A DNA stretch of 64,000 nt, taken from positions 1-64,000 of the forward strand of contig JAHBWG010000018.1 of the NCBI GenBank assembly GCA_019637095.1, given 5' to 3'. Both the position numbers and the translations under genes were made by a program. This stretch comes from Sandaracinaceae bacterium (GTDB lineage Bacteria; Myxococcota_A; Polyangia; Polyangiales; Sandaracinaceae). Under the pieces are notes generated by a model. The model had not been told where the DNA came from. It searched no databases and worked only from the letters and a program-made list of their open reading frames with translations. Position 1 is the first letter of the stretch; each line of letters starts with the position of its first letter. This document shows positions 6,465 to 57,146 of the stretch, one piece after another.

Positions 6465-7630
6465 CCGCACGAGGATAGCGCCTGCTCGAGATCTGCCCAG
6501 AGGTCCTCGACGTCCTCGATCCCGACGCTCAACCGCAACAGGCCCTCGCCGATCCCCGCCGCGGCGCGCTGCGCGGGTGTCAACGAGGCGTGCGTCGTGC
6601 TCGCTGCGTGCGTGATGAGTGAGCGCACGTCTCCGAGGCTCACGGCGCGCGTGATCACGTCGAGCGTGTCGTAGCACTGGGCCCCCGCGGCGCGTCCGCC
6701 CGCGACCTCGAACGCGAGCAGCGCGCCGAAGCCGCCGCGCATCTGCCGGGCCGCGACGGCGTGGTCGGGGTGCGAGGGGAGGCCCGGGTAGAGCACGCGC
6801 TCGACGGCGGGGTGCGCCTCGAGCCGCGTCGCGAGCTCGAGCGCGCTCGCGGAGGCGCGCTGCATGCGCAGGCCGAGCGTGCGCAAGCCGCGCGCGACGA
6901 GCATCGCGGCCCAGGGGCTCGGTGCGGCGCCCGCGGTACGCACGCCCACGCGGCGGACCGCCTCGACGCGCGCCGCGTCGCCGAGCACGACGCCCCCGAC
7001 GACGTCGCCATGCCCGGAGAGGAACTTCGTCGTCGAGTGGATCACGAGATCGGCGCCGAGCTCGAGCGGGCGCTGGTGGTAGGGCGTCGCGAAGGTGGAG
7101 TCGACGACGATCGTCGCGGCCGGCGCGGCGGCGCGCGCCGCGGCGAGGTCCGTGATCGCGAGCGTGGGGTTCGCGGGCGTCTCGAGGTACACGACGCGGG
7201 TCGATGGGCGCAGCGCCGCGGCGAGGGCGTCCGCGCGGGTCGCGTCGACGAAGTCGACCGCGACGCCGAAGCGCCCGAAGTGCTCCACGAGCAGCCGGAC
7301 GGTCTCCGCATAGAGCCGCTCGCTGGCGACGACGTGGTCGCCCGCCGCGAGCGAGGCGGTGAGGGCCGCGTGGATGGCGGCCATGCCGCTCGCGAGCGCG
7401 ACCGCGCCCTCGGCGCCCTCGAGCGCGGCGAGCTTGGCCTCGAGCGCGTCGACGGTCGGGTTCCTCCAACGCGAGTACACGTAGCCGGTCCCCTCGCGGA
7501 AGCGCGCGGCGGCGTCCGCGGCGCTCTCGAAGGCGAAGGCGCTCGACGTCACGAGCGGCGGATCGAGCGCGCCGCTCGTCGGGTCCGGCGCGTCGCCCGC
7601 GTGGACCGCCAGCGTGTCGAATCGGTGCAT
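6461..7630 (-). CDS. Cys/Met-metabolism PLP enzyme (cystathionine synthase/lyase or Met gamma-lyase type)
   Basis: A 389-residue fold-type I PLP enzyme of the trans-sulphuration family. Key motifs: YSRWRNPT (52-59), SGMAAIHAAL (81-90, phosphate-binding), YLETPANPTL (148-157), VDSTFATPYHQRP (176-188; D177 contacts the pyridine N), and HSTTKFLSGHGD (198-209) with the PLP lysine K202. The VDSTFATP form, with Ser where many members have Asn, and the lack of neighbours in methionine synthesis leave the exact reaction open: gamma-synthase, gamma-lyase or O-acetylhomoserine sulphhydrylase. ATG 7630 is a clear start. It is divergent from the kinase gene and coupled downstream to a lipoprotein. Confidence 0.88.
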   Translation of the reverse strand: MHRFDTLAVHAGDAPDPTSGALDPPLVTSSAFAFESAADAAARFREGTGYVYSRWRNPTVDALEAKLAALEGAEGAVALASGMAAIHAALTASLAAGDHVVASERLYAETVRLLVEHFGRFGVAVDFVDATRADALAAALRPSTRVVYLETPANPTLAITDLAAARAAAPAATIVVDSTFATPYHQRPLELGADLVIHSTTKFLSGHGDVVGGVVLGDAARVEAVRRVGVRTAGAAPSPWAAMLVARGLRTLGLRMQRASASALELATRLEAHPAVERVLYPGLPSHPDHAVAARQMRGGFGALLAFEVAGGRAAGAQCYDTLDVITRAVSLGDVRSLITHAASTTHASLTPAQRAAAGIGEGLLRLSVGIEDVEDLWADLEQALSSCG

Positions 7631-7688
7631 CGGCGGGACCTTACGGCTCCGACCCGGCGTGCGCTACGCTTGCCGCCGAGCGGCGCGC

Positions 7689-9224
7689 ATGAGCTTCCAG
7701 CGATTCGGCCCTTACGAGCTCGTCGAGCGCCTCGGGACCGGGGGGATGGCCGAGACGTTCCTCGCCGTGCGGCGCGGCGTCGGCGGCTTCGAGCAGCACG
7801 TCTGCGTCAAGCGCATCCTGCCCATCTACGAGCGCGACCCCGCGTTCGTGAAGGACTTCCTCGAGGAGGCGCGGCTCGCCGCGCAGCTCCGGCACCCCAA
7901 CATCGCGCAGGTGGTCGACTTCGGCGAGGTCGAGGGCTCGCACTACCTCGCGCTCGAGCTCGTCGACGGGCTCGACCTGCGCACGCTGCTCGCGCGCCTC
8001 GCCGAGCGAGGGCAGCGCCTCGACACCTCGCTCGTCGTGCTGATCGGCGTCGCGCTCGCGACCGCGCTCGACTTCTCGCACACGCCGACGCGCAGCCGCG
8101 CGGCGGTGGTCCACCGTGATCTCTCTCCGTCGAACGTGCTCGTGAGCCGCTCCGGCGGCGTGTACCTGACCGACTTCGGCATCGCGCGCGCCATCGGCGA
8201 TCCGCGCCGCACCGAGACGGGGGTGGTGCGGGGGAAGGTCCCGTACATGGCGCCCGAGTACGCGCTCCACCGCCGCTTCGACGCGCGCACGGATCTGTTC
8301 AGCCTCGGCGTCGTGCTCTTCGAGGCGCTCGCGGGCCGGCGGCCGTTCGACGGGGCGACCGACCTCGACACGCTCGCGCGCATCGAGGTGGGGCGCCACG
8401 CACCGCTCCTCGAGCTCGCGCCGGCGACCCCGCCCGGGCTCGCGTTCCTCGTCGAGGCGCTGATCCGCGCGGACCCCGCGAGCCGCTACCAGAGCGCGGC
8501 GCAGCTGCTCGAGGCGCTGGCGCCGTTCGCGCCGCCCGCGACGGCGGGGCGCGAGCTCGGGCGCGTGGCGAGCTCGCTCGGGGAGTCGCTGAGCAGCTCC
8601 CTGTCGCTCGCGCTGTCGTCGCCGAGCCGCACCGCGTCGCTGACGGACACCCCGGCGCCCGCATACCCTTCCGTCTCGGCGGCCGGTCCCGACGCCGCGA
8701 CGCGGACGAGCGACGCGGGCCGCGCGCCCGCCCGCGCGGCCGAGCCGGGCTGGTCGGTCACCAACCCCGACGCGATCTCGCACCACGATCGGCCGTCGCC
8801 TTACGCGTCGGCCTCCGGCCACGACGCGCCTTCTCCGTACGCCGCGCCGCTCGCGTCACCGCCTGCCCTGGCCGCGCACGGCGCGCAGCCCACCGCCGCC
8901 GGCGCGCCCGCGTGGCCCGCGAGCCCGCTCCCCTCGGCGGCCGCCGTGGAACCCTCGTACGGTGGCGCCCTCGGGCTCGGCGCCACCCTGGCGCTCGAAG
9001 CGCCGGCCGCGTACTCGGCGACGACGCCCGCTGCCGCGCCCGCGATCCCGGTGACCCAGCCGACGCTGCCGGTCGGCTCGACCCCGTTCGCGGCGGGCGC
9101 GCCGCCGCGGCGGTCGCGCGCGGGGCTCATCGCGCTGCTCGTGGTGCTCGGCATCATCACCTTCGTCGTCGCGACCGCAGGGACGTACGCGGTGGTGGCG
9201 GCCCTCCAGGCCGGCGGTGGCTGA
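7689..9224 (+). CDS. Membrane-anchored Hanks-type Ser/Thr protein kinase
   Basis: A 511-residue kinase starting at ATG 7689. Catalytic features are complete: glycine loop GTGGMAETF, ATP-binding K41, catalytic loop HRDLSPSNV (D144), DFG (D162), and MAPEY at the end of the activation segment. HRDLSPSN, with Ser after Leu instead of Lys, is the variant common in myxobacterial kinases. After residue about 280 comes a long low-complexity Ser/Pro/Ala-rich region, then one transmembrane helix (about 480-505) and only a few residues outside. It therefore has no sensor domain beyond the membrane. It overlaps the next gene by 8 bases. Confidence 0.92.
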   Translation: MSFQRFGPYELVERLGTGGMAETFLAVRRGVGGFEQHVCVKRILPIYERDPAFVKDFLEEARLAAQLRHPNIAQVVDFGEVEGSHYLALELVDGLDLRTLLARLAERGQRLDTSLVVLIGVALATALDFSHTPTRSRAAVVHRDLSPSNVLVSRSGGVYLTDFGIARAIGDPRRTETGVVRGKVPYMAPEYALHRRFDARTDLFSLGVVLFEALAGRRPFDGATDLDTLARIEVGRHAPLLELAPATPPGLAFLVEALIRADPASRYQSAAQLLEALAPFAPPATAGRELGRVASSLGESLSSSLSLALSSPSRTASLTDTPAPAYPSVSAAGPDAATRTSDAGRAPARAAEPGWSVTNPDAISHHDRPSPYASASGHDAPSPYAAPLASPPALAAHGAQPTAAGAPAWPASPLPSAAAVEPSYGGALGLGATLALEAPAAYSATTPAAAPAIPVTQPTLPVGSTPFAAGAPPRRSRAGLIALLVVLGIITFVVATAGTYAVVAALQAGGG

Positions 9225-10829: not shown

Positions 10830-11699
10830 CGCGGCGGACCAGCCGAGCGCGAGGAGCGGCCCGGCCCCCGCGGTGAGCACGACGAACGGCAGCACGGGCC
10901 GCTCGGGGCGGAGCCAGCCGAGGGAGAGCACGGCACAGAGCGCCGGTGGCCCCACCGAGAGCGCGATCCAGGCCGGCGCGAGCGCGGGGCCGACCTGGGT
11001 CGCGAGCACGAGGCCCAGGCCGCTCAGCGCCAGCGCGTCGCGGCGCGCGCGCCCATCCCCGCGGCGGACCGGCCAGGTCCGCTTGCCCGCCCTGCGATCG
11101 CCGTCGAGGTCGGGCAGGGCGGTGAGCGCGTTCGCCGCGAAGCCGAGCACGACCAGCGGCGCGAATGCGTCGTAGGGCGCGCGCGCGAGCTCGCCCGTCT
11201 GCGCGTACCAGCCGAGCAGCGGCAGCACGAGCCCGACGCCGAGCCCTTGGACGACCTCGCCGAAGCCCCGGTAGGAGAGTCGCAGGGGAGGGAAGCTGTA
11301 CGAGTGCAAGAGAAGTAGCGCGGCCAGCGCGAAGGCGGGCAGGAGCGGGCGATCGAGCGCGGCGCCGGCCGCCGCCGACCCGACGAGCAGGGCGATCGCG
11401 GCCGCGAGCGCGCCGGCGCGCAGGCTCGAGGCGCGGATGAGCCCGTCGGGGATCACGCGCGAGCCGCCGCTCACGAGCGTGCGCGCCCGCGCCTGCGCGT
11501 CGGCGTCGCGGTCGGCGTAGTCGTTGCCGAACACGATGACGAGGTGATCGAGCGCGCCGAAGCCGAACGCCACCGCGGCGAGGACGGGGTCGAACGTGTG
11601 CGTCTGCGCGTACGCGAGCGCCTGACCGAGCAGGATCGGCGGCGCGAGGTTCACGTGGGCGAGCGGACGGGCGGCCCGCGCCCACGCGCGCAGGCTCAT
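10800..11699 (-). CDS. UbiA/MenA-family prenyltransferase, second copy
   Basis: A 299-residue membrane protein starting at ATG 11699, which overlaps the upstream gene's stop (ATGA). Motif 1 is GNDYADRDAD, motif 2 is DLDGDRRAGK. SRVIPDGLIRASSLRAG and YSFPPLRLSYRGFGE are the counterparts of segments in the other prenyltransferase of this window, so the two are distant paralogues within the MenA-like branch. The hydrophobic pattern gives eight to nine helices, as expected. Donor chain and aromatic acceptor cannot be read from sequence. Confidence 0.83.
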   Translation of the reverse strand: MSLRAWARAARPLAHVNLAPPILLGQALAYAQTHTFDPVLAAVAFGFGALDHLVIVFGNDYADRDADAQARARTLVSGGSRVIPDGLIRASSLRAGALAAAIALLVGSAAAGAALDRPLLPAFALAALLLLHSYSFPPLRLSYRGFGEVVQGLGVGLVLPLLGWYAQTGELARAPYDAFAPLVVLGFAANALTALPDLDGDRRAGKRTWPVRRGDGRARRDALALSGLGLVLATQVGPALAPAWIALSVGPPALCAVLSLGWLRPERPVLPFVVLTAGAGPLLALGWSAALALGGASGP

Positions 11700-12376
11700 C
11701 CGCGCTCTTCGCGGCTCTTGCTCGGAGCCGGCGCCACGGGCATGTCGTGTCGGCCCGTGATCTCCTCCCAGGTCGGCAGGAGGTTGTCGCTCGAGACGGT
11801 CAGCACGCGCAGGCGCAGCACGACGCGCGTGACGCCGGAGGTCTGGCTGAACCGCACCTGCCGGCCCTTGCTCTGCTCGAACACCGCCTCGGAGCCCGGC
11901 CGCGGGAAGGGGTGGCTGAGCTCCATCGACTCTCCGTCGCGGAGCTGGCCGCCGACGAGGCGCGCGCCGAGCAGCGCGTGCTCGGCGTGCGCCCGGCGCG
12001 TGTTCTGGTCGATCACCGCGATGCAGACCAGCCGCGAGTCGAGCGCGTAGATCGTGTTGCGGGTCCAGATCTCCACGAACGTCCAGTCGTGGTCCGGCAG
12101 GGGCGCGGTCCGGCGCTCGTGGATCAGATCGATGTCGACCGCGGGCTGCCCCCGGCGGACCGGCCGCGCGACGCGTTGCGGCTCGACGCCCGCGGGCGGC
12201 GCCGGGCGCGCCTCGACCCGCACGGAGGCGGCGGGCTCGTCCTCGAAGCGGGCGACCTCGGGCTCGAGATCGGGGACCTCGACCTTCGGGGCGAAGCCGC
12301 GGAACGTGTTGCGCTTGTCGCGCTCCTGGGGCTTGGCAGGCCGCTTCTTGGGGTGACGGTCCGACTCCTCGCCCAT
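11696..12376 (-). CDS. Unknown soluble protein, 226 aa
   Basis: Not recognised. The first 80 residues are highly charged and probably disordered (DRHPKKRPAKPQERDKR, then an acidic VEVPDLEPEVARFEDE). A folded domain begins near residue 85 (VDIDLIHERRTAPL) and contains WTFVEIWTRNTIYALDS and VCIAVIDQNTRRAHAEHALLGARLVGGQ. That last pattern suggests a beta-rich, PilZ-like or ligand-binding barrel, but no diagnostic motif is present. ATG 12376 is preferred over GTG 12382. Translation is coupled to the second prenyltransferase. The 65-base gap to the FHA-ABC gene must hold two divergent promoters. Confidence 0.6.
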   Translation of the reverse strand: MGEESDRHPKKRPAKPQERDKRNTFRGFAPKVEVPDLEPEVARFEDEPAASVRVEARPAPPAGVEPQRVARPVRRGQPAVDIDLIHERRTAPLPDHDWTFVEIWTRNTIYALDSRLVCIAVIDQNTRRAHAEHALLGARLVGGQLRDGESMELSHPFPRPGSEAVFEQSKGRQVRFSQTSGVTRVVLRLRVLTVSSDNLLPTWEEITGRHDMPVAPAPSKSREERG

Positions 12377-12441
12377 GCGCACCGAAGGCTACACGATCGC
12401 GGTTCTGTACGCCTGCGCATTTCGGTATCCTCCGCCCTGTC

Positions 12442-15400
12442 GTGAACGCCAAGATCTGCCCGCGCTGCCAGACGCCGAACCCGCCGACCGGCCAGGCTTG
12501 CTACAACTGTGGGACGCCGCTCGCGGCGCCGGGCTATCCGCCGCAGCAGCCCGGCTATCCGCCGCAGCAGGCCGGCTACCCGCCGCAGCAGCCCGGCTAC
12601 CCGCCGTCTCAGCCCGGCTACCCGCCGTCGCAGCCCGGCTACCCGCCGCAGCAGCCCGGCTATCCGCCGTCGCAGCCCGGGTCGTACGCGGGGCACGCGG
12701 CGCCTTCGCAGGCCGGGGGGCCGCCCGCGCCGAAGGCCACGATGGCGCTCAGCTCCGAGGACGCGATGGCCGCGCTCAGCATGGCGGGCATCGGCGGGCC
12801 CAACCAGTCCTCGCCCGGGTCGATCCCCGGCGGCGGCCAGGCGGGTCCCGGCGAGGTCACCGTCGGCCGCGATCCCTCCAACGTCATCGTGTTCGACAAC
12901 CCCGTCGTCTCCGCGCGGCACGCGAAGATCGCGCGCAACCCGCAAGGCGGCTTGCTCGTCGCGGACCTCGGATCGACGAACGGCACGTACCTGCGCGGCG
13001 AGCGCATCCAGTCGCGGGTGGTCTCGCTCCTCGACGACGTGTACCTCGGGTCCGCGCCGCTCCGCATGAGCGACCCGCGGATCGCGGGGCTCGTGATCGT
13101 GGTGAACCGGCCGCCCCAGAAGGGGCAGCCGTTCGTGCTCGGCAGCGACGCGGGCTGCGACATCACGCTGCGCGACGCGCAGGTCGCGCCGCGCCACTGC
13201 CAGCTCACCGAGCTGCCCGGCGGCAGCTTCCAGGTCCAGGACCTCGGCTCCCCGGCGGGCACCGCGATCGACAACGCGTCGTTCCGCGTGCAGACCGCGA
13301 CGGCCAACGCGACGAGCACCATCATGCTGGGCGGCTTCGCGCTGCCGCTCCAGCTCCTCGCGCGGATGGTCGAGGGCGCCAAGGGCGAGGGCTCCGTCAT
13401 GCAGATGGCGGAGGCCGCGGTCCAGGGCCTCAACCTCGACAAGCCGGTGATCACCGTCGGCCGCGCGCCGGGCGCCGACCTGGTCCTGCCGCACCCGTCG
13501 GTCTCGGGCCGGCACGCGGAGATCCGCAAGCAGCCGGACGGCCGCTTCCAGATCCGCGATCTCGGCTCGACGAACGGCACCTACGTCAACGGCGTGCGCA
13601 TCAGCACGCACGTCGCGGGCCCGGGCGATCGGGTCACCGTCGGCGCGGTCACGCTGTTGCTCGGCGCACGCGGCATCGAGGGCGCGCAGCGCGCGAAGGT
13701 CCGGCTCGACATCGTGCAAGTCGGCTTGCAGGTGAAGAACCGCACGACCGGCAAGCCGCTGAACCTGCTCGAGAACGTGAACCTCTCGATCTTCCCGGGC
13801 GAGCTGATCGGGATGCTCGGGCCGTCGGGCGCGGGCAAGAGCACGCTCTTGATGACGGTGCTCGGGATCATCCGCCCGACCTCGGGCGGCGTGCTCCTGA
13901 ACGGCCGCCCGCTCTTCGAGCAGTACGAGTCGTTCCGCACGAACGTCGGCTACGTGCCGCAGGACGACATCGTCCACCCCGAGCTCACCGTGAAGGAGGC
14001 GCTCCGCTACGCGTGCAAGCTGCGGCTGCCCAAGGGCACGTCGAGCAAGCACATCGAGGAGTCGATCGACGCGACGCTCAAGGAGGTCGGCCTCTGGGAG
14101 CAGCGCGACCAGCGCATCGGCAGCGCGGAGCAGAAGGTGCTCTCGGGCGGCCAGCGCCGGCGCGTGAACCTCGCCGTCGAGCTCGTCACGGATCCCTCGC
14201 TCCTGATCCTCGACGAGCCCACCTCCGGGTTGAGCTGGACGGACGCCGCGGACGTCATCTCGACGCTGCGCCGCCTCGCCGACAACGGGCGGACGATCGT
14301 CGTCACGATCCACCAGCCCGACTACCAGGAGTACGAGAAGTTCGACGCGGTCACGATCCTCGGCCGCGGGGGCAAGCTCCTGTTCTTCGGGCCGGCGTCG
14401 CCGGACAGCTACGAGTTCTTCGGCGCGACGCCCGGTAAGCCGCGCGAGATGTTCGACCACCTCGAGCAGCTCCCGGCGGACCAGTGGCGGGACAAGTTCC
14501 AGCAGACCGGGACGTATCGACGCTTCGTGGTCGAGCGGGCGGGCAACGCGCAGGCGCAGAGCGGCGGCGCGCCGCCCAAGCCCAGAGCGCGCTCGTCGAT
14601 CCGCCAGTTCCCCGTGCTGCTCGGCCGCTCGTTCAAGCTGACGTTCCGCAACAAGACGGCGCTCGCGATGCTCGTCGTGCAGGCGCCGCTCCTGGCCATC
14701 CTCATCGGGCTCACGACCGGCGGCGCGACCGCGTTCCTCGTCCCGCAGTTCGGCTGCTCGACCCGCGAGGAGGCGGTCGATCAGTGCGCGGGCGTCGACG
14801 ACCGGCTCGCGTGCGACCCCGAGCGCCGGATGGCGATCGCCGCGCGCCTGCCCGACGTGACGACGCCGCACTCCGAGGACCGCGTGAAGGACCCGCGGAC
14901 GGCGCTGCTCGCGATGCTGATGGCGCTCTTCCTGCCGATGATCATCGCGAGCTCGAACGTCCTCGTCGCGGAGAAGACCGTCTACCAGCGCGAGCGCCTC
15001 GCGGGGCTGAACATCCTGCCGTACGTGCTCGCGCGGCTCGGGGTGCTGTTCTTCCTCGGAGGGGTCGTCGTCGTGCTGCACGTCCCGATCGCGTACTACC
15101 TCTGCGATCTGAACGCGGCGAGCGGTGCCGCGGGTGTCGTGAACCTCTTCAAGTACATGTACGTGGGGTTCCTGACGACGAGCACCGCGGCGGCGATGGG
15201 CATGGCGCTCAGCGCGGCGGTCTCCAACCCCGTGACGGCGCTCTGGGGCATCAACTTCCTCGTGATCCCGCAGCTCCTGTTCGCCGGCTCGATCAGCCGC
15301 CTGCAGGGCCTGACCGCCATCTTGAGCTGGCTCACCTCGACGCGCTTCGGCCTCGAGTCGCTGACGTCCGTGGACCTCCGCGCGCGCGACGAGCTGCAGG

Positions 15401-15576
15401 ACTGCCAGGTCGAGCGCTACCTCGAGAACCTGCCCAACTTCTTCAGCGACCCGGACTCGAAGCTCGGAGGGTTCGTGACCGAGTACCCGCTCGTCTTCGC
15501 GACGCTCGGGATGGGCATCCTCGCCTTCGGCGCGTTCGTGTTGACCGCGACGCTCCTGCGGATGAAGGACAAGTAG
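12442..15576 (+). CDS. Zinc-ribbon/FHA/ABC-2 exporter in one chain
   Basis: A 1044-residue half-transporter. In order: a zinc ribbon (CPRC at 6-9, CYNCG at 20-24); seven heptads of P/A-GYPP-Q/S-Q (30-78); an FHA domain (137-205; VGRDPSN, SARHAKI, GSTNGTY); a degenerate FHA-like segment (220-300; RHCQL, but SPAGT in place of STNGT); a third, intact FHA (335-410; VGRAPGAD, SGRHAEI, GSTNGTYV); an ABC ATPase (420-650) with Walker A GPSGAGKS, signature LSGGQRRR and Walker B LLILDEPTSG; then about six membrane helices of ABC-2 type from residue 710. The general plan is that of mycobacterial Rv1747, whose FHA domains bind phosphothreonine, so kinase control is likely. Substrate unknown. GTG 12442 is the start. 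Confidence 0.9.
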   Translation: MNAKICPRCQTPNPPTGQACYNCGTPLAAPGYPPQQPGYPPQQAGYPPQQPGYPPSQPGYPPSQPGYPPQQPGYPPSQPGSYAGHAAPSQAGGPPAPKATMALSSEDAMAALSMAGIGGPNQSSPGSIPGGGQAGPGEVTVGRDPSNVIVFDNPVVSARHAKIARNPQGGLLVADLGSTNGTYLRGERIQSRVVSLLDDVYLGSAPLRMSDPRIAGLVIVVNRPPQKGQPFVLGSDAGCDITLRDAQVAPRHCQLTELPGGSFQVQDLGSPAGTAIDNASFRVQTATANATSTIMLGGFALPLQLLARMVEGAKGEGSVMQMAEAAVQGLNLDKPVITVGRAPGADLVLPHPSVSGRHAEIRKQPDGRFQIRDLGSTNGTYVNGVRISTHVAGPGDRVTVGAVTLLLGARGIEGAQRAKVRLDIVQVGLQVKNRTTGKPLNLLENVNLSIFPGELIGMLGPSGAGKSTLLMTVLGIIRPTSGGVLLNGRPLFEQYESFRTNVGYVPQDDIVHPELTVKEALRYACKLRLPKGTSSKHIEESIDATLKEVGLWEQRDQRIGSAEQKVLSGGQRRRVNLAVELVTDPSLLILDEPTSGLSWTDAADVISTLRRLADNGRTIVVTIHQPDYQEYEKFDAVTILGRGGKLLFFGPASPDSYEFFGATPGKPREMFDHLEQLPADQWRDKFQQTGTYRRFVVERAGNAQAQSGGAPPKPRARSSIRQFPVLLGRSFKLTFRNKTALAMLVVQAPLLAILIGLTTGGATAFLVPQFGCSTREEAVDQCAGVDDRLACDPERRMAIAARLPDVTTPHSEDRVKDPRTALLAMLMALFLPMIIASSNVLVAEKTVYQRERLAGLNILPYVLARLGVLFFLGGVVVVLHVPIAYYLCDLNAASGAAGVVNLFKYMYVGFLTTSTAAAMGMALSAAVSNPVTALWGINFLVIPQLLFAGSISRLQGLTAILSWLTSTRFGLESLTSVDLRARDELQDCQVERYLENLPNFFSDPDSKLGGFVTEYPLVFATLGMGILAFGAFVLTATLLRMKDK
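12529..12675 (+). repeat. Seven in-frame 21-bp tandem repeats
   Basis: Seven near-identical 21-bp units encode P/A-GYPP-Q/S-Q heptads in the linker of the FHA-ABC exporter. Copies differ mainly at CAG/TCT/TCG (Gln or Ser) codons and at synonymous bases, so they arose by local duplication. Similar Pro-Gly-Tyr-Gln repeats occur in eukaryotic annexin VII and other self-associating linkers. This is a protein repeat, not a CRISPR. Confidence 0.9.
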
Positions 15577-47004: not shown

Positions 47005-47078
47005 CCAGCGGATGCGCCGGCCACGCGACAGAAACGACGTCTGGGGGTCGGCCTCGCCGGCCTCCCATGGAGGCACCC

Positions 47079-50000
47079 GTGTCGGATGAAGCGCTGACGG
47101 AAGAGACGCGAGCGAAGCTCGCCGAGCTCGACGAGGCGATCGAGAAGTTCACCGGTCAGAAGCGCTGGTCGGACGTGATCAAGGCGGTCGTCCAGAAGGC
47201 CGAGATCCATCCCGACCCGGCGGCCAAGGTGGAGCTCTTCGCCGAGGCCGGTCGGATGTACCTCGACAAGTCCTCCAACCAAGCCGAGGCGATCAAGTGC
47301 TTCGAGCAGGTGCTCGAGCACGACGCGGGCAACGTCGAGGCGATCGAGCAGCTCAAGGAGATGTACGAGAAGCGCCGCGACTGGGAGTCGCTCGTGCGCG
47401 TCCGTCAGCGCGCCGCGCAGCTCATGGACGAGGCGGATCGCCTCTTCGAGTACGTCGAGATCGCCAACATGGCGACGCAGCGCCTGCGCAAGCCCGAGCT
47501 GTGCATCGAGCTGTGGCAGGTGGTCCTCGAGGAGGACGCGGAGAACCCCGAGGCGCTCAACGCCCTCGCGCAGCTCTACGAGCGCGCGAGGGAGTGGGAG
47601 CCGCTCGCGCGCGTGCTCGACAAGCTCGTCGCGCAGATCGAGGACACCGAGGAGCTCAAGGCCGCGCTGAACAAGCTCGGGATGATCTACGCCGACAAGG
47701 TCGGCGACGACCGCGGCGCGGTCGACGCGTTCCGCCGCCTGCTCGCGCTCGATCCGGACGACCGCCGCGCGCAAGAGCAGCTCAAGCGCCGCTACGCGTC
47801 GCTGCGCGCGTGGGACGACCTCGAGGAGTTCTACGCGGCCACCGACAAGTGGGACGAGCTCATCCGCGTGTTCGAGCGCGAGGCCGAGGGCAAGGAGGCC
47901 TCCGACGAGGAGCGGATCGACCTGCTCTTCCGTTCGGCGCGCCTCTGGATGGACAAGCTCGAGAAGCCGGATCGCGCCGCGCGCGCGTACGAGAAGGTCC
48001 TCGCGAAGGACGAGAACAACCTCGACGCGGCACTCGCGCTCTCGCCGATCTACGAGGAGGCGGGCGACGCGAAGAAGCTCGTCGGCGTCTACGAGGTGCG
48101 CCTGCGCCACGCGACCGAGCCGGCGGAGCGCGTGCACCTGCTCCGCGAGAGCGGCCTGCTCTACGAGGAGAAGCTCCGCCGCCCGAAGGAGGCCTTCGAC
48201 GCGTTCATCGCCGCGTTCAAGGCCGACCCGACGCAGGAGGTCATCCGCGAGGACGTCGCGCGACTCGCCGAGGCGACCAAGGGCTGGGACGAGGCGATCG
48301 CCGCGTACGGCGTCGCGATCGACGAGGCGACCGAGCCGGACGTGCAAGTCGATTTGCGCCTCCAGCTCGGCGCGCTGCTCACTCAGGTCGACCGCGTCGA
48401 GGACGCGATCGCGCAGTACCGCGCGGTCTACGAGTCCGAGGGCGACAACATGGCGGCGATCTCGGCGCTGGAGGAGCTCTACCGCCGCACCGAGAAGTAC
48501 GCCGAGCTCATGGAGGTCTACGAGCGCCGCATGGAGCTCGAGTCGGACCCCGACGCGCGCCGCCAGCTCGCCTACGGGCGCGCCTCGCTCTACGAGGGCG
48601 AGCTCGGCGACGCGGCCCACGCGATCGACGCCTACCAGGCGATCCTCGCGGAGTGGGGCGACGACGAGTCCGACGCGTACGCCGCGCTCGACCGCCTGTT
48701 CGAGGCCGAGTCGCGGTGGGCGGACCTCGCCGCGACGCTCGAGCGGCGGATCGACCTCGGGCCCGAGAGCCCGGAGGAGCTCGCCGCGCTCAAGTTCCGG
48801 CACGCCAACGTGCTGACCGATCACCTCGAGGAGAAGGAGAGGGCGCTCGAGCTCTACCGCGAGGTCCTGGTCCTGAACCCCGAGCACGACGGCGCGCGCG
48901 CGCGCCTCGAGAGCTTCCTCGATCGCGCGGATCTCGGGGCGAGCGCGGCGACGATCCTCGAGCCGATCTACGAGATGGGCGGCCACTGGGAGCCGCTCGT
49001 GCGCGCGCTCGAGGTGCTCGCGAAGGGCTCGGAGGACCCGGAGCGCCAGCTCGAGATCCTCACGAAGGTCGGCGAGGTGTGCGGCATCCAGATCGGGGAC
49101 TCTGCGCGCGCGTTCGACGCCTTCGGGCGTGCCCTGCGCGTGATGCCGGAGAGCCTCGAGACGCTCCAGCGCCTCGAGCTGCTCGCGGAGGAGCAGGAGC
49201 GCCAGGACGACCTCGTCGCGCTCGTCGAGGAGCTCGCCGGCGAGACGGCGGACCCCGATCTCGCGCGCACGCTCTGGCTCAAGGCCGCGGCGATCCACGA
49301 CGGCCAGCGGCGCGACATCGACCGCGCGGTCGCCGCGTACGGCAAGATCCTCGAGCTCGACCCGGCGGACGCCGAGGTCCTCGACGCGCTCGACGCGCTC
49401 TACCGGCGCACCGAGCGCTGGCGCGACCTGCTCGGCGTCGTGCGCCGCAAGGCGGAGCTGACCGACGACGTGGCGCTGCGCGAGGAGCTGCTCGCGCAGA
49501 ACGCGATGATCTTCGAGGAGATGCTCGAGGAGCCCGAGAGCGCCATCGGCGTCTACAGCGACATCCTCGAGCTCGATCCGTCGAGCCAACGCGCGCTCGT
49601 GGCGCTCGACCGGCTCTACGAGCGGCTCGAGCGCTGGACGGACCTCGCCGACAACATCGGGCGGCAGCTCGCGATCGCCGAGAGCCCCGACGCCGAGACG
49701 GCGTTGATGCTGCGGCTCGGCGCGCTGCGCGAGTCGCGGATGGGCGCGGTCGACGCGGCGATCGAGATCTACCGCGAGGTGATCGAGCGCGACCCGCAGA
49801 ACGAGCGCGCCCTGAGCGCCCTCGAGCGGCTGATCCAGACCGAGGAGCACCAGCTCGCGATCGCGACGATCCTCGAGCCGATCTACCGCGACGCGAGCCT
49901 CTACGAGCAGCTCATCTACGTGCACGAGATCCAGGCGCACCACGCGTCGAGCCCGGACATGCGGGTCGAGCTGCTGCACCAGATCGCGGAGCTCTACGAG

Positions 50001-53000
50001 GTGGCGCTCGAGGACTACGGCAACTCGTTCAACTCGTACGCCCGGGCCCTGGGCGAGGAGCCGGCCGACCTCAACACGCAGGAGCAGCTCGAGCGGCTCG
50101 CGCGCGCGACGGGTGCGTTCGAGCAGCTCGCGGTCGTCTACGAGGAGCGCGTGCAGGCGCTGCTCGAGGCGGGCGCCCCGGAGGATCCCACCCTCGCCTC
50201 GCAGCTCCTCGTGAAGGCCGCGACGATCCGCGAGGAGCAGCTCGGCGACGTCGAGACCGCGATCACGCACTACCAGCGGGTCCTCTCGCTCGAGCCGCGT
50301 CACATCGAGGCGGCGAGCGCGCTCGAGCGGCTCTTCCAGATGTCCGAGCGCTACACGGAGCTCGCGGCGATCCTGCTGCAGAAGGCGGGGATCCTCGACG
50401 TCCCCGACGACCAGAAGGCGCACCTCTTCCGCGCCGCGGCGATCCACGAGGAGCTGCTCGAGAGCCCGACCCAGGCGATCGACGTCTACAAGCGCGTCCT
50501 CGAGGTCGACGCGGAGGACCTGCGCGCCCTCGACAAGCTGATCGAGCTGCACCTCTTGCTCGAGAAGTGGCCGGACCTGCTCGCGTTCTACGAGCGCAAG
50601 GCGGACATCGTCTTCGACCCGGACGAGAAGAAGGCGATCTTCGTCGAGGTCGGCGCCGTGTACGAGCGCGAGATCGGCGACGTCGAGAAGGCGATCGACA
50701 CCTACCAGCGCATCCTCGAGATCGACCCGGACGACCTCACCGCCATCGGGCGGCTCGACGCGCTCTACCAGGCGAGCGGCAACTGGGAGGAGCTGCGCGC
50801 GATCCTCGAGCGTGAGGCCGACCTCTCGACCGATCCGAACGAGGTGATCTCGTACCGCTACCGCATCGCCGACCTCTGGGATCACAAGCTCGGCGACGCG
50901 AGCCGCGCCGTCGACGGCTACCGCGAGATCCTCGCGGTGCTGCCCGATCACCAGCCGACCCTCGAGGCGCTCGAGCGGATGATCGCGGAGGGCAAGGAGG
51001 CGAACGAGGCCGCCCTCGTCCTCGAGCCGATCTACAGCCAGTACGGCGAGTTCGAGCGGCTCGTGGCGGTGCTCGAGGTGCAGGTGCGTCACGAAGAGGA
51101 CGCGCTCGCGCGCGTCTCGCTGCTGCACCGGATCGCGGAGCTCTCCGAGGTGCAGCTCGAGCGCACGCGGCAGGCCTTCGACGCGTACGCCCGCGCGTTC
51201 CCGCTCGACAGCGGGAACGAGACGACGATGGGGAGCCTCGAGCGCCTCGCCGAGGAGCTGAACGCGTGGCCGGAGGTCACCGCGCTCTACGATCGCGAGG
51301 TGCAGCGCCTGCGCGCCGACGCGCCCGACGCGGTCGTCGAGCTCGCGCTCCGCGTCGCGCAGATCTATTTCATCCAGCTCGGCGACGTGGACAACGCGAT
51401 CGCGCGCTACCGCGTCGTGCTCGAGGTCGAGCCGTCGCACGTGCAGGCGGTCGAGGCGCTCGATCAGCTCTACGAGCAGACCGAGCGGTGGGCCGAGCTC
51501 GCGGAGATCCTCCAGCTCGAGGTGCAGCTCGCGTCGAGCTCCGACGACATCCTCGCGCTGTCCTTCCGGCTCGGACAGGTCTACGAGCACTACCTCGACC
51601 GCGTCGGCGACGCGATCGAGCAGTACCGCGAGATCCTCGCGTCGGCGCCCGAGCACGAGGAGGCCCTCGTCGCGCTCGAGATCCTCCTCGGCCGCGGCGT
51701 GAGCCCGATCGCCATCGCCGAGATCCTCGAGCCGCTCTACCGGATGAGCGAGTCGTGGGATCGCCTCATCGGCGTCAACACGGTGCAGCTCCAGCACCAG
51801 ACCGACCCGGACGAGCGCGTCCAGATGATGCACCGCATCGCGGAGCTCGCGGAGGATCGCGCGGGAGACCACCAGCTCGGGTTCGAGTGGATGCAGCGCG
51901 CGCTGCTCGAGGGGCCGCGCAACGAGCACACGGTGGCCGAGGTCGAGCGCCTCGCGGGGATGCTCGACCGCTGGGACCAGCTCGCGAACACCTACGCGGA
52001 CGTCCTGGCGCAGTCCGAGGACCCGCAGGCGATCGCGGAGATCGGCAAGCGCCAGGCGCGCGTGCTCGAGGCCGAGCTCGGCGACGTCGAGGGCACCGTC
52101 GCGGCGTACCTCTTCGTCCTGAAGAGCAACCCGGCCGAGGCGGAGGTGCTCGAGCAGCTCGACCGCATCTACACCGACCACGGCGCGCACGAGGCGCTCG
52201 CCGAGACGCTGAAGCGGCGGGTCGCCGCGAGCCAGGACGAGCGGGAGAAGGTCGACCTCTCGTTCCGGCTCGGGCAGGTGCTCGAGAACGAGCTCGGGCG
52301 CATCGACGAGGCGGTCACGGTGTACGACGGCCTGCTGCGCACGCTCGACGCGGAGCACGAGCCGTCGATCAAGGCGCTCCAGAACATCTACACGGAGAAG
52401 CAGGACTGGCCGGCGCTGTTCGCGACGTTCCAGCGCGAGATGGAGGTGGCCGTCGGCGACTCCGCGCGCTCGGACGTGACCGCGCGGATGGCGCACGTGT
52501 CGGCCTTCTACCTGGGCCAGCCCGAGAAGGCGATCGAGCTCTGGAAGGAGGTGCTCGACATGCGCGGCGAGGATCCCGAGGCGCTCAACGCGCTCGGGAA
52601 CATCTACGCGCACCTCCAGCGGTGGGGCGAGCTCGTCGAGATCCTCGATCGCGAGGTCACCGTCGCCGACACGGACGAGGCGCGCGTCGCGATCTTCACG
52701 GACATGGCGCGCACGTTCTACCAGCGCCTCGGCAAGGTGGACGCGGCGATCGACAGCTGGGAGCGCGTGCTCGACATCGAGCCGGCGAACCCGAACGCGC
52801 TGTTCGGGCTCGCCGAGATCCGCCGCAACGCGGAGCAGTGGCACGAGCTCGCCGACACGCTCCACCGCGTCGTCGACGTCGGCGCCGCGACGCTCGACGA
52901 CCGCACGCTCGCCGACGTCTACATGCAGCTCGGCGCGCTCTACGAGTACACGCTCCTCGAGCCGGCCCGCGCCGCCGAGGCGTACGCGCGCGCGGTCGAG

Positions 53001-56000
53001 GTCGACCCCCACGACTTCGACGCGATGGACGCGCTCGAGCGTGTCCACCGGGCGCAGGGCGACTGGGTCGACGCCATCGGCGTGATGGAGAAGCGCGTCG
53101 AGGCGACCGAGGACGAGGCCGCGCGCGTGGCGATCTTGCTCGCGATCGCGGAGGCGTGGCAGGTCCACGCCCAGGAGCCCGACCGCGGCACCTCCGCGTA
53201 CGAGCGCGTGATCGAGCTCGAGCCGAGGCACGAGCTCGCGTTCACGCAGCTCGAGATCCTGCACCGCGCGGCGGAGCGCTGGGACGCGCTCGTCGACCTC
53301 TACCTCGCGCGCATCGACACGTGTGAGGAGCCGGAGGAGATCATCGATCTGCTGCGCCGCGTCGCGAAGGTCAACGAGGTGCACCTCGAGGACCTCGCGC
53401 AGGCCCAGGACGCGCTCGTGCTGGCCTGGGAGCAGGACTTCACGAACGCCGAGACCGCGGACGAGCTCGAGCGCATCTGCGCGCTGACCAAGGACTGGAA
53501 CACGCCGCTCGAGCTCGCGAACACGACGCTCCAGCAGCTCCAGGCCGACCAGGAGCACGACACGCGCGCGATCAAGATCGCGCTCTGTCTGCGCTGCGCG
53601 CAGTGGTACGGGACCCGGCTCAACCACCCCGAGTACGCCGTCCCCTACTACAACCAGATCCTCGCGCTCGATCCGACGAACTACCAGGCGATGAACTCGC
53701 AAGCGAACTTGCACCGGCACCTCGGCCAGTGGCAGGCGCTCGCGCAGATGCTCGGCCGCATGTCCGAGATCGTGAAGGCGCCTCACGAGCTCGCGTCGGT
53801 GTTCGTCGACATGGGCGAGCTGTGCGAGACGCACCTCGGCGTGCCGGACCAGGCGCCGATGTACTTCCGCAAGGCGCTCGACGCGGACAAGACCCACCTC
53901 GGCGCGATCGCCAACCTCGAGCGCCTCCACACCCAGGCGGAGAGCTGGAACGAGCTCCTCAAGATCCTGCGCTTGAAGGTCGCTGCGCTGAAGGACGTCG
54001 AGGAGCGCTGCGACGCGCAGCTGCAGGTCGCGGAGCTGCTCGAGCTGCGCTTCGAGCAGGCCGACGACGCGATCGCCGAGTACAGCAAGATCCTCGAGAC
54101 CAGCCCGAGCGAGCTGCGGGCGCTGAAGGGCCTCGAGCGGCTCTACGCGCAGCGCGAGGACTGGCAGCCGCTGCACGACGTGCTCGCGCGCGAGTACGAC
54201 CTCGTCTCGACCGAGAAGGAGCGCGTCTCGATCCTCATCCGCCTCGCCAGCATGCTGGAGGAGGAGTTCATCAAGCCCGAGCAGGCGGCGGATCGGCTCG
54301 AGCAGGCGCTCACCATCGACGCGAACAACGAGACGGCGCTGCGCGGCCTCGAGCGGCTCTACCGCCGCATGCAGCGCTGGCCGGACCTCATCGGCGCCTA
54401 CGAGCGACACATCGAGGCCTCTCCCGAGCGCGCGGTGAAGGTCGAGTGCTACGCCGCGATCGGCGAGGTCTACTCGGGTGAGCTGCGCGACGTCGACCGC
54501 GCGATCGACAGCTACCTCAACCTCCTCGCCATCGACGAGAACAGCGTCGGCGCGCTCGACGCGCTGACTCGCCTCTACGAGAAGCGCCAGGACTACGGGC
54601 AGGCCATCGACATGATGAACCAGCTCGCGCGCCTCGAGACCGACCCGGCGAAGGTCGTCGACATGCGCTACCGCATGGGGCGCATCCTCGACGAGCACCT
54701 CGCCGATCGCGACGGCGCGGTCGACAGCTACCGGCGCGCGCTCGAGGGCGACCCGGGGCACCTGCCCACGCTGGCGGCGATGCGCCGCATCCAGCTCGAC
54801 ATGGGCGACTGGCTCGCGGCCGCACGCACGCTCGAGCAGGAGACGCAGTACACGCAGAGCCCGCGGCAGACCTCCGAGCTGCTCGTCGAGCTCGGCCGCC
54901 TCTACGACGAGCGCCTCGAGGAGCACGAGCGCGCGGTCGAGTGCTACGAGGCGGCGTTCCGGCAGGCGAGCGACAACGAGGACGCGGCCCTCCCGCTCGC
55001 CGAGGAGTACGTCAAGCAGGGGCGGTGGGACGAGGCGTTCCCGATCCTCGACATGCTCGTCAAGGGGATGGGCAAGCGCGAGGCGCACGAGCAGCACCAC
55101 CTCTCGCTGACCCTCGGTGACGTCGCGCTCCGGCTCCAGAACGCGGACGACGCGATCAAGGCGCTCCTCAAGGCGTACCAGATCGACCAGCACCACCTGC
55201 CCACGCTGATGAAGCTGGCGGACGCCTACTACCTCGCGAAGGACTGGGAGAAGGCGTTCAAGTATTTCCAGATGCTGCTCGTCCACCACCGCGACGCGCT
55301 CGGTCGCGACGAGATCACGGACGTCTTCTACAAGCTCGGTGTCGTCAAGCGCGAGCAGGGTGATCGCCGCAAGGCGCTCAACATGTTCGACAAGGCACTC
55401 GAGGAGGATCCGCACCACCGCCCGACCCTCGAGGCGATGGTCGGCGTGTACGAGTCGTCGAGCGACTGGGAGCAGGTCATCCACTACAAGAAGCAGGTCC
55501 TCGAGGTCGCCGAGATCGAGGAGCGCTTCGAGCTGCTGCAGGAGATCGGCGACCTCTGGGCCGACAAGGTCAAGAACGCGCAGAAGGCGATCGAGTCCTA
55601 CGTGGAGGGCACGGAGCTGCAGCCGGGCAACCACCGCCTGCTCCACAAGCTCCTCGCGCTCTACCAGCAGACGCGGCAGTGGGACGAGACCATCGCGATC
55701 ATCCAGCAGGTCAGCGACCTCGACGAGCGGACCTCGGTGAAGGCGAAGTACGCGTACACGGTCGCCGTCATCCTGCGCGACGAGATCAAGGACATGGACC
55801 GGTCGATCGCCAAGTTCAACGAGGCGCTCGATCTCGACCACTCGATGCTCAAGGCCTTCGAGGCGATCAACAAGATCCTCACGCAGAAGAAGGACTGGAA
55901 GCAGCTCGAGCGGGCGTTCCGCAAGATGCTCCACCGCATCACCGGCGAGGGGAACCTCGACCTCGAGTACAACCTCTGGCACAACCTCGGCGTCATCTAC

Positions 56001-57146
56001 CGGGACCGGCTCAAGCAGTACGACAACGCCGTCGCCGCGTTCGCGACGGTCACCGATCGCATCCGACCGGACAGCACCGTGGACCACCAGATCCTCGCGG
56101 AGCTCCACACGCTGATCGGCGGTGACAACATCGCGAACGCGATCGGCGAGCACCAGTGGCTCATCCGGCAGGACCCGTACCGCATCGAGAGCTATCAGAA
56201 GCTCTACAAGCTCTACTTCGACGCCCGCGCGTACGACAAGGCGTGGTGCCTCGCGGCGACGCTGAACTTCTTGAAGAAGGCGGACGTCGAACAGCAGCAG
56301 TTCTTCGCGGACAACCGGCCCAACGGGCCGATCCGGCCGACGAACCGCCTCAACGACGAGCGCTGGCTCAAGGATCTCGCGCACCCCGAGCAGGACCTGT
56401 TGGCGGCGAAGATCTTCGAGCAGCTGTGGGGCGGCGTGCTCTCCCTCCGCCACCAGACCGACAAGGCGGCCGGGCTCTCGCCCAAGTACGAGGTCAACCC
56501 CGCGGACAGCACGGTGACGTTCGCGCGCACCTTCGGGTTCGTCGCGAACGTGCTCGGGCTGCCGTGCCCGCGCCTGTTCCTGCGCACCGACGTACCGGGC
56601 GGGCTGACCGCGCTGCCGGTGTGGCCGCTCGCGTCGATCTCGGGGGCCACGCTCCTCAGCGGCTACCAGCCCAACGACCTGATGTTCGTGGTCGGCCGGC
56701 ACCTCGCGGACTACCGGCCCGAGCACTACATCCGCACGATGCTGCGCTCGAACACCGAGCTCAAGACGGTCCTCATGGCGGGCCTGCGGATCGCGGGCGT
56801 GCTGCCGGCCTCCGAGCCGGCGATCGAGGCGGCGGCGCAGCAGCTCGCGCCCAAGATGCAGCCGGCGCAGGTCGACGCGCTCCGCCGCCTGGGCAAGCGC
56901 TTCGTCGACGCGGGCGCGCGCACGGACATCAAGCGCTGGCTGCAGGCGGTCGAGCTCACCGCGTGCCGCACCGGCTTCCTCGTCTGCAACGACCTCGACA
57001 CGGCCGCGCGCATGGTCACGCAGCTCCCGGCCGCGGCCGTCGACGTGCCGCCGAAGGACAAGGTCAAGGAGCTCGTGCTGTTCAGCGTGAGCGAGGAGTA
57101 CTTCCGCTTGCGCGAGCACCTCGGGATCCGCATCCCGCTCGCGTGA
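47079..57146 (+). CDS. AgmK/GltI-like giant TPR protein, about 3355 aa
   Basis: An open frame of 10 kb without interruption. GTG 47079 is preferred for its GGAGG five bases upstream; ATG 47067 would add four residues. There is no signal peptide or membrane helix, so the protein is predicted cytosolic. Nearly all of it is built from helical modules with a period near 73-75 residues (two TPR-like hairpins each, with W..L..VYE, LYE..L.....A and LERLY as anchor positions), about 40 by estimate. The last 275 residues or so (from [12 protein letters not shown]) are different and look globular ([20 protein letters not shown]). Size, repeat type and neighbours fit AgmK/GltI of the gliding machine. 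Its stop overlaps tsaE (GTGA). Confidence 0.85.

Follow-up and report, generated by a model that had tools for sequence, protein, structure and literature searches.

In a 64,000-nucleotide stretch of a Sandaracinaceae bacterium (hereafter the window; assembly GCA_019637095.1, contig JAHBWG010000018.1, positions 1 to 64,000), we found that the gene at 12442-15576 encodes an FHA-containing ABC exporter. Its disordered N-terminal linker carries a threonine, T100, that is invariant among orthologues, and two of its three FHA domains retain the residues that contact phosphate. By analogy with known systems, we give about even odds (roughly 0.5) to the reading that this is an ABCG-type exporter whose phosphorylated linker threonine would be bound by its own live FHA domains. 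The exporter is real and conserved and, judged by its sequence, looks phospho-regulated; it varies a type already known. The features on which this reading depends are:

12442..15576, + strand: whole gene, 1044 aa; zinc ribbon, disordered linker, FHA1, pseudo-FHA2, FHA3, ABC ATPase and ABC-2 domains, in this order
12739..12750, + strand: TMAL, residues 100-103, with T100 as candidate phospho-acceptor and FHA ligand; disordered in the model
12856..13050, + strand: FHA1, residues 139-203; Arg/Ser/Asn contacts present
13132..13332, + strand: FHA2 (pseudo-FHA), residues 231-297; folded in the model, lacking the phosphothreonine-contacting Arg and Ser
13450..13644, + strand: FHA3, residues 337-401; contacts present; adjoins the ATPase domain

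The invariant T100 is the new element here, absent from the first-pass annotation of this DNA. It is the sole threonine of the 112-residue linker (27-138) of the window protein. We aligned nine orthologues with a sequenced N-terminus, the window protein included, plus L103, which lacks it; the ten include two near-identical pairs, and L019 among them is not placed in a family and ends within the membrane domain. Across the nine linkers T100 and A102 are invariant, M101 is replaced by V once, and P68 is the only other invariant column. The pattern T[MV]A[LMF] occurs in 9/9 linkers versus 0.04 expected from shuffles, a count inflated by shared ancestry; identity between the two orthologue sub-groups is the fairer measure, and it reaches 0.80 for the motif, against 0.24 for the rest of the linker, 0.51 for the ribbon and 0.56 for FHA1. 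The +3 position after T100, which is stressed in the self-peptide binding described for DgcB (PMC6733907), is hydrophobic in all nine. In the AlphaFold2 model of the unphosphorylated exporter (residues 1-432; 48 sequences), T100 sits in a segment with a predicted local distance difference test score (pLDDT) below 50.

FHA domains are reported to be specific for phosphothreonine (PMC7761784), and the Arg, Ser and Asn considered here are the phosphate contacts described for Rad53 and mapped on FHA I of Rv1747 (PMC5549992). We found all three kept in FHA1 and FHA3 of 10/10 orthologues, which suggests, as far as sequence can tell, selection for phosphothreonine binding, while FHA2 has lost both Arg and Ser in all ten. 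The three stretches were recognised by Pfam (E 1.5e-49, whole protein). The FHA domains are mostly modelled at pLDDT >90, the FHA1-FHA2 region (about 138-310) being folded above 90, with a low-confidence short stretch at ~314-330 between FHA2 and FHA3. The alignment supports two putatively phosphothreonine-competent domains around a degenerate middle one; by contact residues, the earlier claim that only two should bind phosphothreonine stands as a prediction. The middle domain is degenerate as claimed, but SPAGT, cited as its marker, is not a good one: three orthologues (L097, L098, L099) read SPNGT in FHA2, yet lack Arg and Ser.

The mechanism that we propose is modelled on GarA, OdhI and DgcB, in which a canonical FHA domain follows a flexible N-terminal tail bearing a conserved Thr; the window exporter shows the same arrangement, with T100 in its linker ahead of FHA1. 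In DgcB of Bdellovibrio the FHA domain is described as binding its own N-terminal T14 (PMC6733907). GarA/OdhI and DgcB are not transporters, and their tail motifs differ from that of the exporter. The protein would be an ABCG/White-type half-exporter gated by threonine phosphorylation, presumably a functional homodimer given its half-transporter layout, whose ATPase and membrane domains would export a substrate. Two live FHA domains would flank a dead one, with the disordered N-terminal linker tethered to the zinc ribbon, which may act as a docking or structural cap. A Hanks-type kinase would phosphorylate T100, and pT100 could be captured by FHA1 or FHA3, whether in its own chain, in the dimer partner or in a neighbouring transporter. 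The outcome might be either occupied FHA sites, as with the self-ligands of GarA/OdhI/DgcB, or cross-linked transporters, as in Rv1747-like clustering; phosphorylation of T100, FHA binding and an effect on transport are all predictions.

Several observations weigh against capture of pT100 by the exporter's own FHA domains. The nine threonines are not nine independent events, since the orthologues share ancestry. Of the 59 FHA-bearing frames detected in the genome, none but the exporter's contains T[MV]A[LMF]. A low-confidence helix (105-114) follows T100 in the AlphaFold2 model, so the role of T100 might instead be to cap a docking helix. In the distant homologue L040 a threonine motif, RTVIGELN, is modelled as the strand that starts FHA3 (residues 227-234; block-mean pLDDT 60 for 221-230 and 81 for 231-240, moderate confidence), so that, going by this model, fold alone may conserve a comparable motif in distant homologues. 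Finally, the kinase encoded in the window is not a conserved neighbour of the exporter. With only 1/59 FHA-bearing frames containing it, TMA[LMF] was discarded as a companion of FHA domains across the genome.

The same helix lends some weight to a different explanation, possible if somewhat unlikely, in which the FHA domains read phosphothreonines of other proteins and TMAL is no phospho-acceptor but offers another domain a short docking helix or a helix cap. In the closest orthologues the motif continues into a partly conserved 'DAM.ALS.AG' stretch, and Rv2623, phosphorylated at T237, has been proposed as a ligand of Rv1747 FHA I (PMC5549992). A docking helix fits less well with the fact that the residue at TMAL is invariably Thr, never S, and the only Thr in the linker of the window protein, whereas the subsequent helix residues are variable or missing.

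The remaining parts of the protein are:

12457..12522, + strand: zinc ribbon, residues 6-27, CPRC...CYNC
12529..12675, + strand: seven [PA]GYPP[QS]Q units, residues 30-78, encoded by a 21-bp tandem array
13768..14226, + strand: ABC ATPase domain (Pfam ABC_tran), residues 443-595; Walker A GPSGAGKST, signature LSGGQ
14602..15333, + strand: ABC-2 membrane domain (Pfam ABC2_membrane), residues 721-964

The open reading frame (ORF) starts with GTG at 12442, its stop codon ends at 15576, and its third-position GC of 0.98 marks it as a genuine gene; a 985-aa and other antisense ORFs were handled as high-GC shadows and not as genes. Pfam, tandem-repeat and model data confirm that ribbon, PGYPPQQ-type repeats, three FHA domains, ATPase and ABC-2 lie in one chain, as annotated at first pass, and an extra hydrophobic segment (residues 1017-1035) lies beyond the ABC-2 domain. 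The ribbon scores under the Pfam curated cut-off (DZR, E 7e-4, 20.1 versus 27.3 bits); we accept it as real because its four cysteines are kept in the 9/9 orthologues having a sequenced N-terminus and because it is confidently modelled (residues 1-30, block-mean pLDDT 88-95). A GYF_2 domain takes the place of the ribbon in the homologue L032 and likewise, slightly below the Pfam cut-off, in L029; since ribbon or GYF_2 occurs at the same place, the N-terminal front end looks like a variable slot occupied by various small domains. Another Myxococcota record (L044) combines a ribbon match with two FHA domains. Besides a GYF_2-type domain at the N-terminus, the FHA-ABC proteins L029 (5530-8244, +) and L032 (5722-8463, +) each have a linker with a pair of threonine motifs, the first being RTMAVPSL or GTMAIPSL and the second RTMLG.

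The repeat array (12528-12680; 7.3 copies, 90% matches, score 222 in TRF) is not due to chance, and it is found in no other aligned orthologue. The linkers of the orthologues are 50 to 112 residues long; some are rich in Pro/Gly/Gln in a different sequence, which may include related PGYGQQ or PGQ stretches, and others lack such text altogether. At the DNA level, a two-unit pattern has six occurrences in the exporter's own genome, all inside the array, and a single one in nine other genomes of the family (in G002, on a different contig from its orthologue). The array appears to be a recent 21-bp expansion within one species, and the PGYPP repeats would be an interchangeable disordered spacer. 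It had been proposed that the PGYPPQQ array drives phase separation and clustering. In favour of this are a linker that is disordered in the model (residues 31 to 130, block-mean pLDDT 41-61), the richness of family linkers in Pro/Ala/Gly/Ser/Gln, and the reported phase separation of residues 1-310 of Rv1747, its own linker included (PMC9312465). Yet orthologues manage without the repeats, with linkers of differing length and sequence, and the pattern's rarity beyond this one gene points the same way; a clustering role specific to the array is not supported, and we regard it as highly improbable. Equally poor are the prospects of the idea that FHA domains and linker only assemble the dimer, phosphorylation control having been lost: it would suit the contact-free FHA2, but not FHA1 and FHA3, whose contacts persist in orthologues down to ~45-50% identity to the window protein over the FHA region.

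We searched the own genome (9.25 Mb, 197 contigs), in which the exporter has a single full-length match, itself. A match at 1e-60 was detected in 19/38 genomes of relatives, the own genome included; within the family it is present in 9/10 genomes, the exception being 75% complete. Ribbon, linker, three FHA domains and ABC parts are found together in 9/9 orthologues with a sequenced N-terminus, and three FHA domains in 10/10. Over the phylum, about half of the Myxococcota genomes sampled (180/371, E 1e-60) possess a homologue of the FHA3-ATPase-membrane core. FHA counts beyond the Pfam calls rest on a purpose-built hidden Markov model. By this measure, 70/86 distant homologues carry three FHA domains ahead of the ATPase motif; the 86, out of 87 loci (L062 was left out, though matching when searched alone), include repeated copies of one protein, and removal of identical C-termini and other FHA counts leaves 63 distinct three-FHA proteins. 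In a further set of phylum homologues, a ribbon-like CxxC...CxxC precedes the first FHA in 16/59. Here ribbon means only the cysteine pattern ahead of the first FHA; 59 of the 60 loci L204-L263 were counted (L260 was left out, though matching when searched alone), and as the loci were hand-picked among the matches listed (the majority of those from other orders, together with a selection from the exporter's own), 16/59 is not an unbiased rate. Seven of the 16 (L207, L208, L210, L211, L214, L217, L223) are three-FHA proteins of one other family, f31, which share the CxxC pair, linker, three FHA domains and ABC parts with the window exporter. They differ from it in FHA1, where Tyr (6) or Phe (1) replaces Arg, and in the linker, which reads TRPE in 7/7 (0.02 expected) and never TMAL.

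The combination, called odd at first pass, recurs in 9/9 orthologues and in the seven f31 proteins. The oddity, to be given up should the architecture prove common and linker length irrelevant, has largely gone: the architecture is recurrent, and linker length varies more than twofold among orthologues. From the sequences compared, the overall design is recurrent in the phylum and the conspicuous repeat belongs to a single species. A phylum search with a ribbon-and-linker query matched mostly in the low-complexity stretch and was not used. Five homologues (L216, L219, L221, L224, L229) have four FHA domains before the ATPase motif.

The 63 distinct distant proteins, nearly all from Myxococcota, have the same FHA-FHA-FHA-ATPase order and a long Ala/Pro/Gly-rich linker. 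In contrast to the window family, where FHA2 is degenerate and the linker precedes FHA1, it is their FHA1 that lacks both Arg and Ser (57 of the 63), and their linker precedes FHA3. FHA3 keeps all three contacts in 63/63. For FHA2 the counts are 62 with Arg, 63 with Ser and only 5 with Asn, which makes it less certain as a live domain. Rotation of the FHA array (last domain to front) as the origin of the differing order was rejected, because the inter-domain stretches are alike, by eye, in the same order in both groups and because in 10/10 members of the window family FHA3 has its top score with the distant FHA3 class. FHA1 also scores best against the FHA3 class (9/10) and FHA2 against the FHA1 class in 7/10 and the FHA3 class in 3, so the argument from class scores applies to FHA3 and not to the other two. 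Just before FHA3, 58/63 distant proteins read [KR]..T[VIML].G (0.33 expected); the five exceptions are four gammaproteobacterial proteins and L115. Both this motif and TRPE were read off the same sequences on which they were then tested, and the 58/63 count is discounted further, since AlphaFold2 places the L040 motif in a strand that enters FHA3. KHRTVIGEL of the distant homologues was dropped as a clean phosphosite on the same ground. In the first AlphaFold2 alignment, every other one of the 63 proteins was included.

A wider generalisation, speculative and on balance doubtful, is that FHA-ABC exporters of myxobacteria share one kit, consisting of live FHA domains, one FHA without phosphate contacts and a disordered linker with a threonine, and that different lineages have wired this kit differently. 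Most sampled homologues would have a dead FHA1 and the linker before FHA3, while the window family would have a dead FHA2 and, before FHA1, a ribbon-capped linker with a different Thr motif; the exporter would be a two-input gate that responds to phosphorylation and to zinc or partner docking.

The closest known transporter is Rv1747 of Mycobacterium tuberculosis, an FHA-containing ABCG-type half-exporter with N-terminal FHA domains, a disordered linker, an ATPase and a membrane domain. The comparison made at first pass holds: the nearest solved FHA domains include GarA, OdhI and Rv1747 FHA-2, the last matched by the window FHA3 (6cah, E 2e-9; Foldseek rank 11), and a canonical FHA precedes the ATPase (443-595), which is followed by ABC-2 (721-964). 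The window exporter differs in having three FHA domains, one of them without contacts, and an added zinc ribbon; its long disordered stretch is N-terminal (~31-133), whereas the Rv1747 linker lies between FHA-1 and FHA-2. According to published reports, PknF phosphorylates Rv1747, phosphorylation lowers the phase-separation concentration of residues 1-310, and endogenous Rv1747 forms nanoclusters (PMC9312465, PMC7761784). The suggested substrate, phosphatidylinositol mannosides (PMC5549992), is not transferable to the window exporter.

In the pknF-Rv1747 operon, as described (PMC3908365), the kinase gene accompanies that of the exporter; unlike Rv1747, the window exporter has no kinase in one operon with it. 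The nearest kinase gene (7614-9224, Pkinase by Pfam) is separated from it by other genes, including 11696-12382 on the other strand. We fetched eight family neighbourhoods, four of which extend 7 kb or more beyond the exporter on its upstream side; in two of these (L171, L172) that region has no kinase match, while in L170 and L175, of the same genus, a kinase lies ~3-7 kb upstream with 40-43% identity to the window kinase. The best match of the L170 and L175 kinases in the own genome is a contig 13 gene (73% and 63%), the window kinase ranking 8th and 14th. A kinase near the exporter within the L170/L175 genus is possible. The window kinase, named earlier for a phosphorylation check of the exporter, was rejected as cognate, as it is not syntenic in the four neighbourhoods that reach far enough upstream and the best match of the L170/L175 kinases lies elsewhere. 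The own genome has at least 153 Pkinase matches (150 of 282 candidates were scored), too many to single out a cognate kinase. Distant homologues have a kinase match nearby in 19/76 loci, no more often than the own genome's FHA genes (16/52, shorter loci), and these matches carry no weight here. The L170 (17072-17986, -) and L175 (12105-12929, -) kinases are on the exporter's strand, and their counterpart here is G000:C13:46339-47202. Three-FHA ABC homologues of gammaproteobacteria (Idiomarina, Nitrincola, Aliidiomarina; L021, L024, L025, L031) have a kinase-like match ~3 kb upstream in 4/4 cases, with 25-28% identity.

With an invariant threonine next to two intact FHA domains, what was a loosely defined 'FHA-regulated transporter' becomes a directly testable hypothesis. 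If it is correct, phospho-gating of the Rv1747 type would reach well beyond mycobacteria, and the positions of linker and dead FHA would be natural variants for comparison. No paper on FHA-ABC proteins of Myxococcota appeared, by title and start of abstract, among the top-ranked results of a search that left subscription literature mostly uncovered.

Among minor features, cysteines C772, C782 and C791 (window 14755-14814), in the loop after the first membrane helix, are kept in 10/10 aligned orthologues, and C988 (15403-15405) in all nine that reach that position; these could form disulfides on the outer face. Upstream, the exporter is adjoined by the divergent gene 11696-12382 (-), whose 228-aa product has no Pfam match; three sister genomes (L172, L173, L174) keep it beside the exporter, at 71-73% identity. 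On the exporter's other side, L172 and L173 carry genes for an OPT transporter and LexA. Of the genes called in the window, the longest is a single ORF at 47067-57146 (+), coding for 3359 aa.

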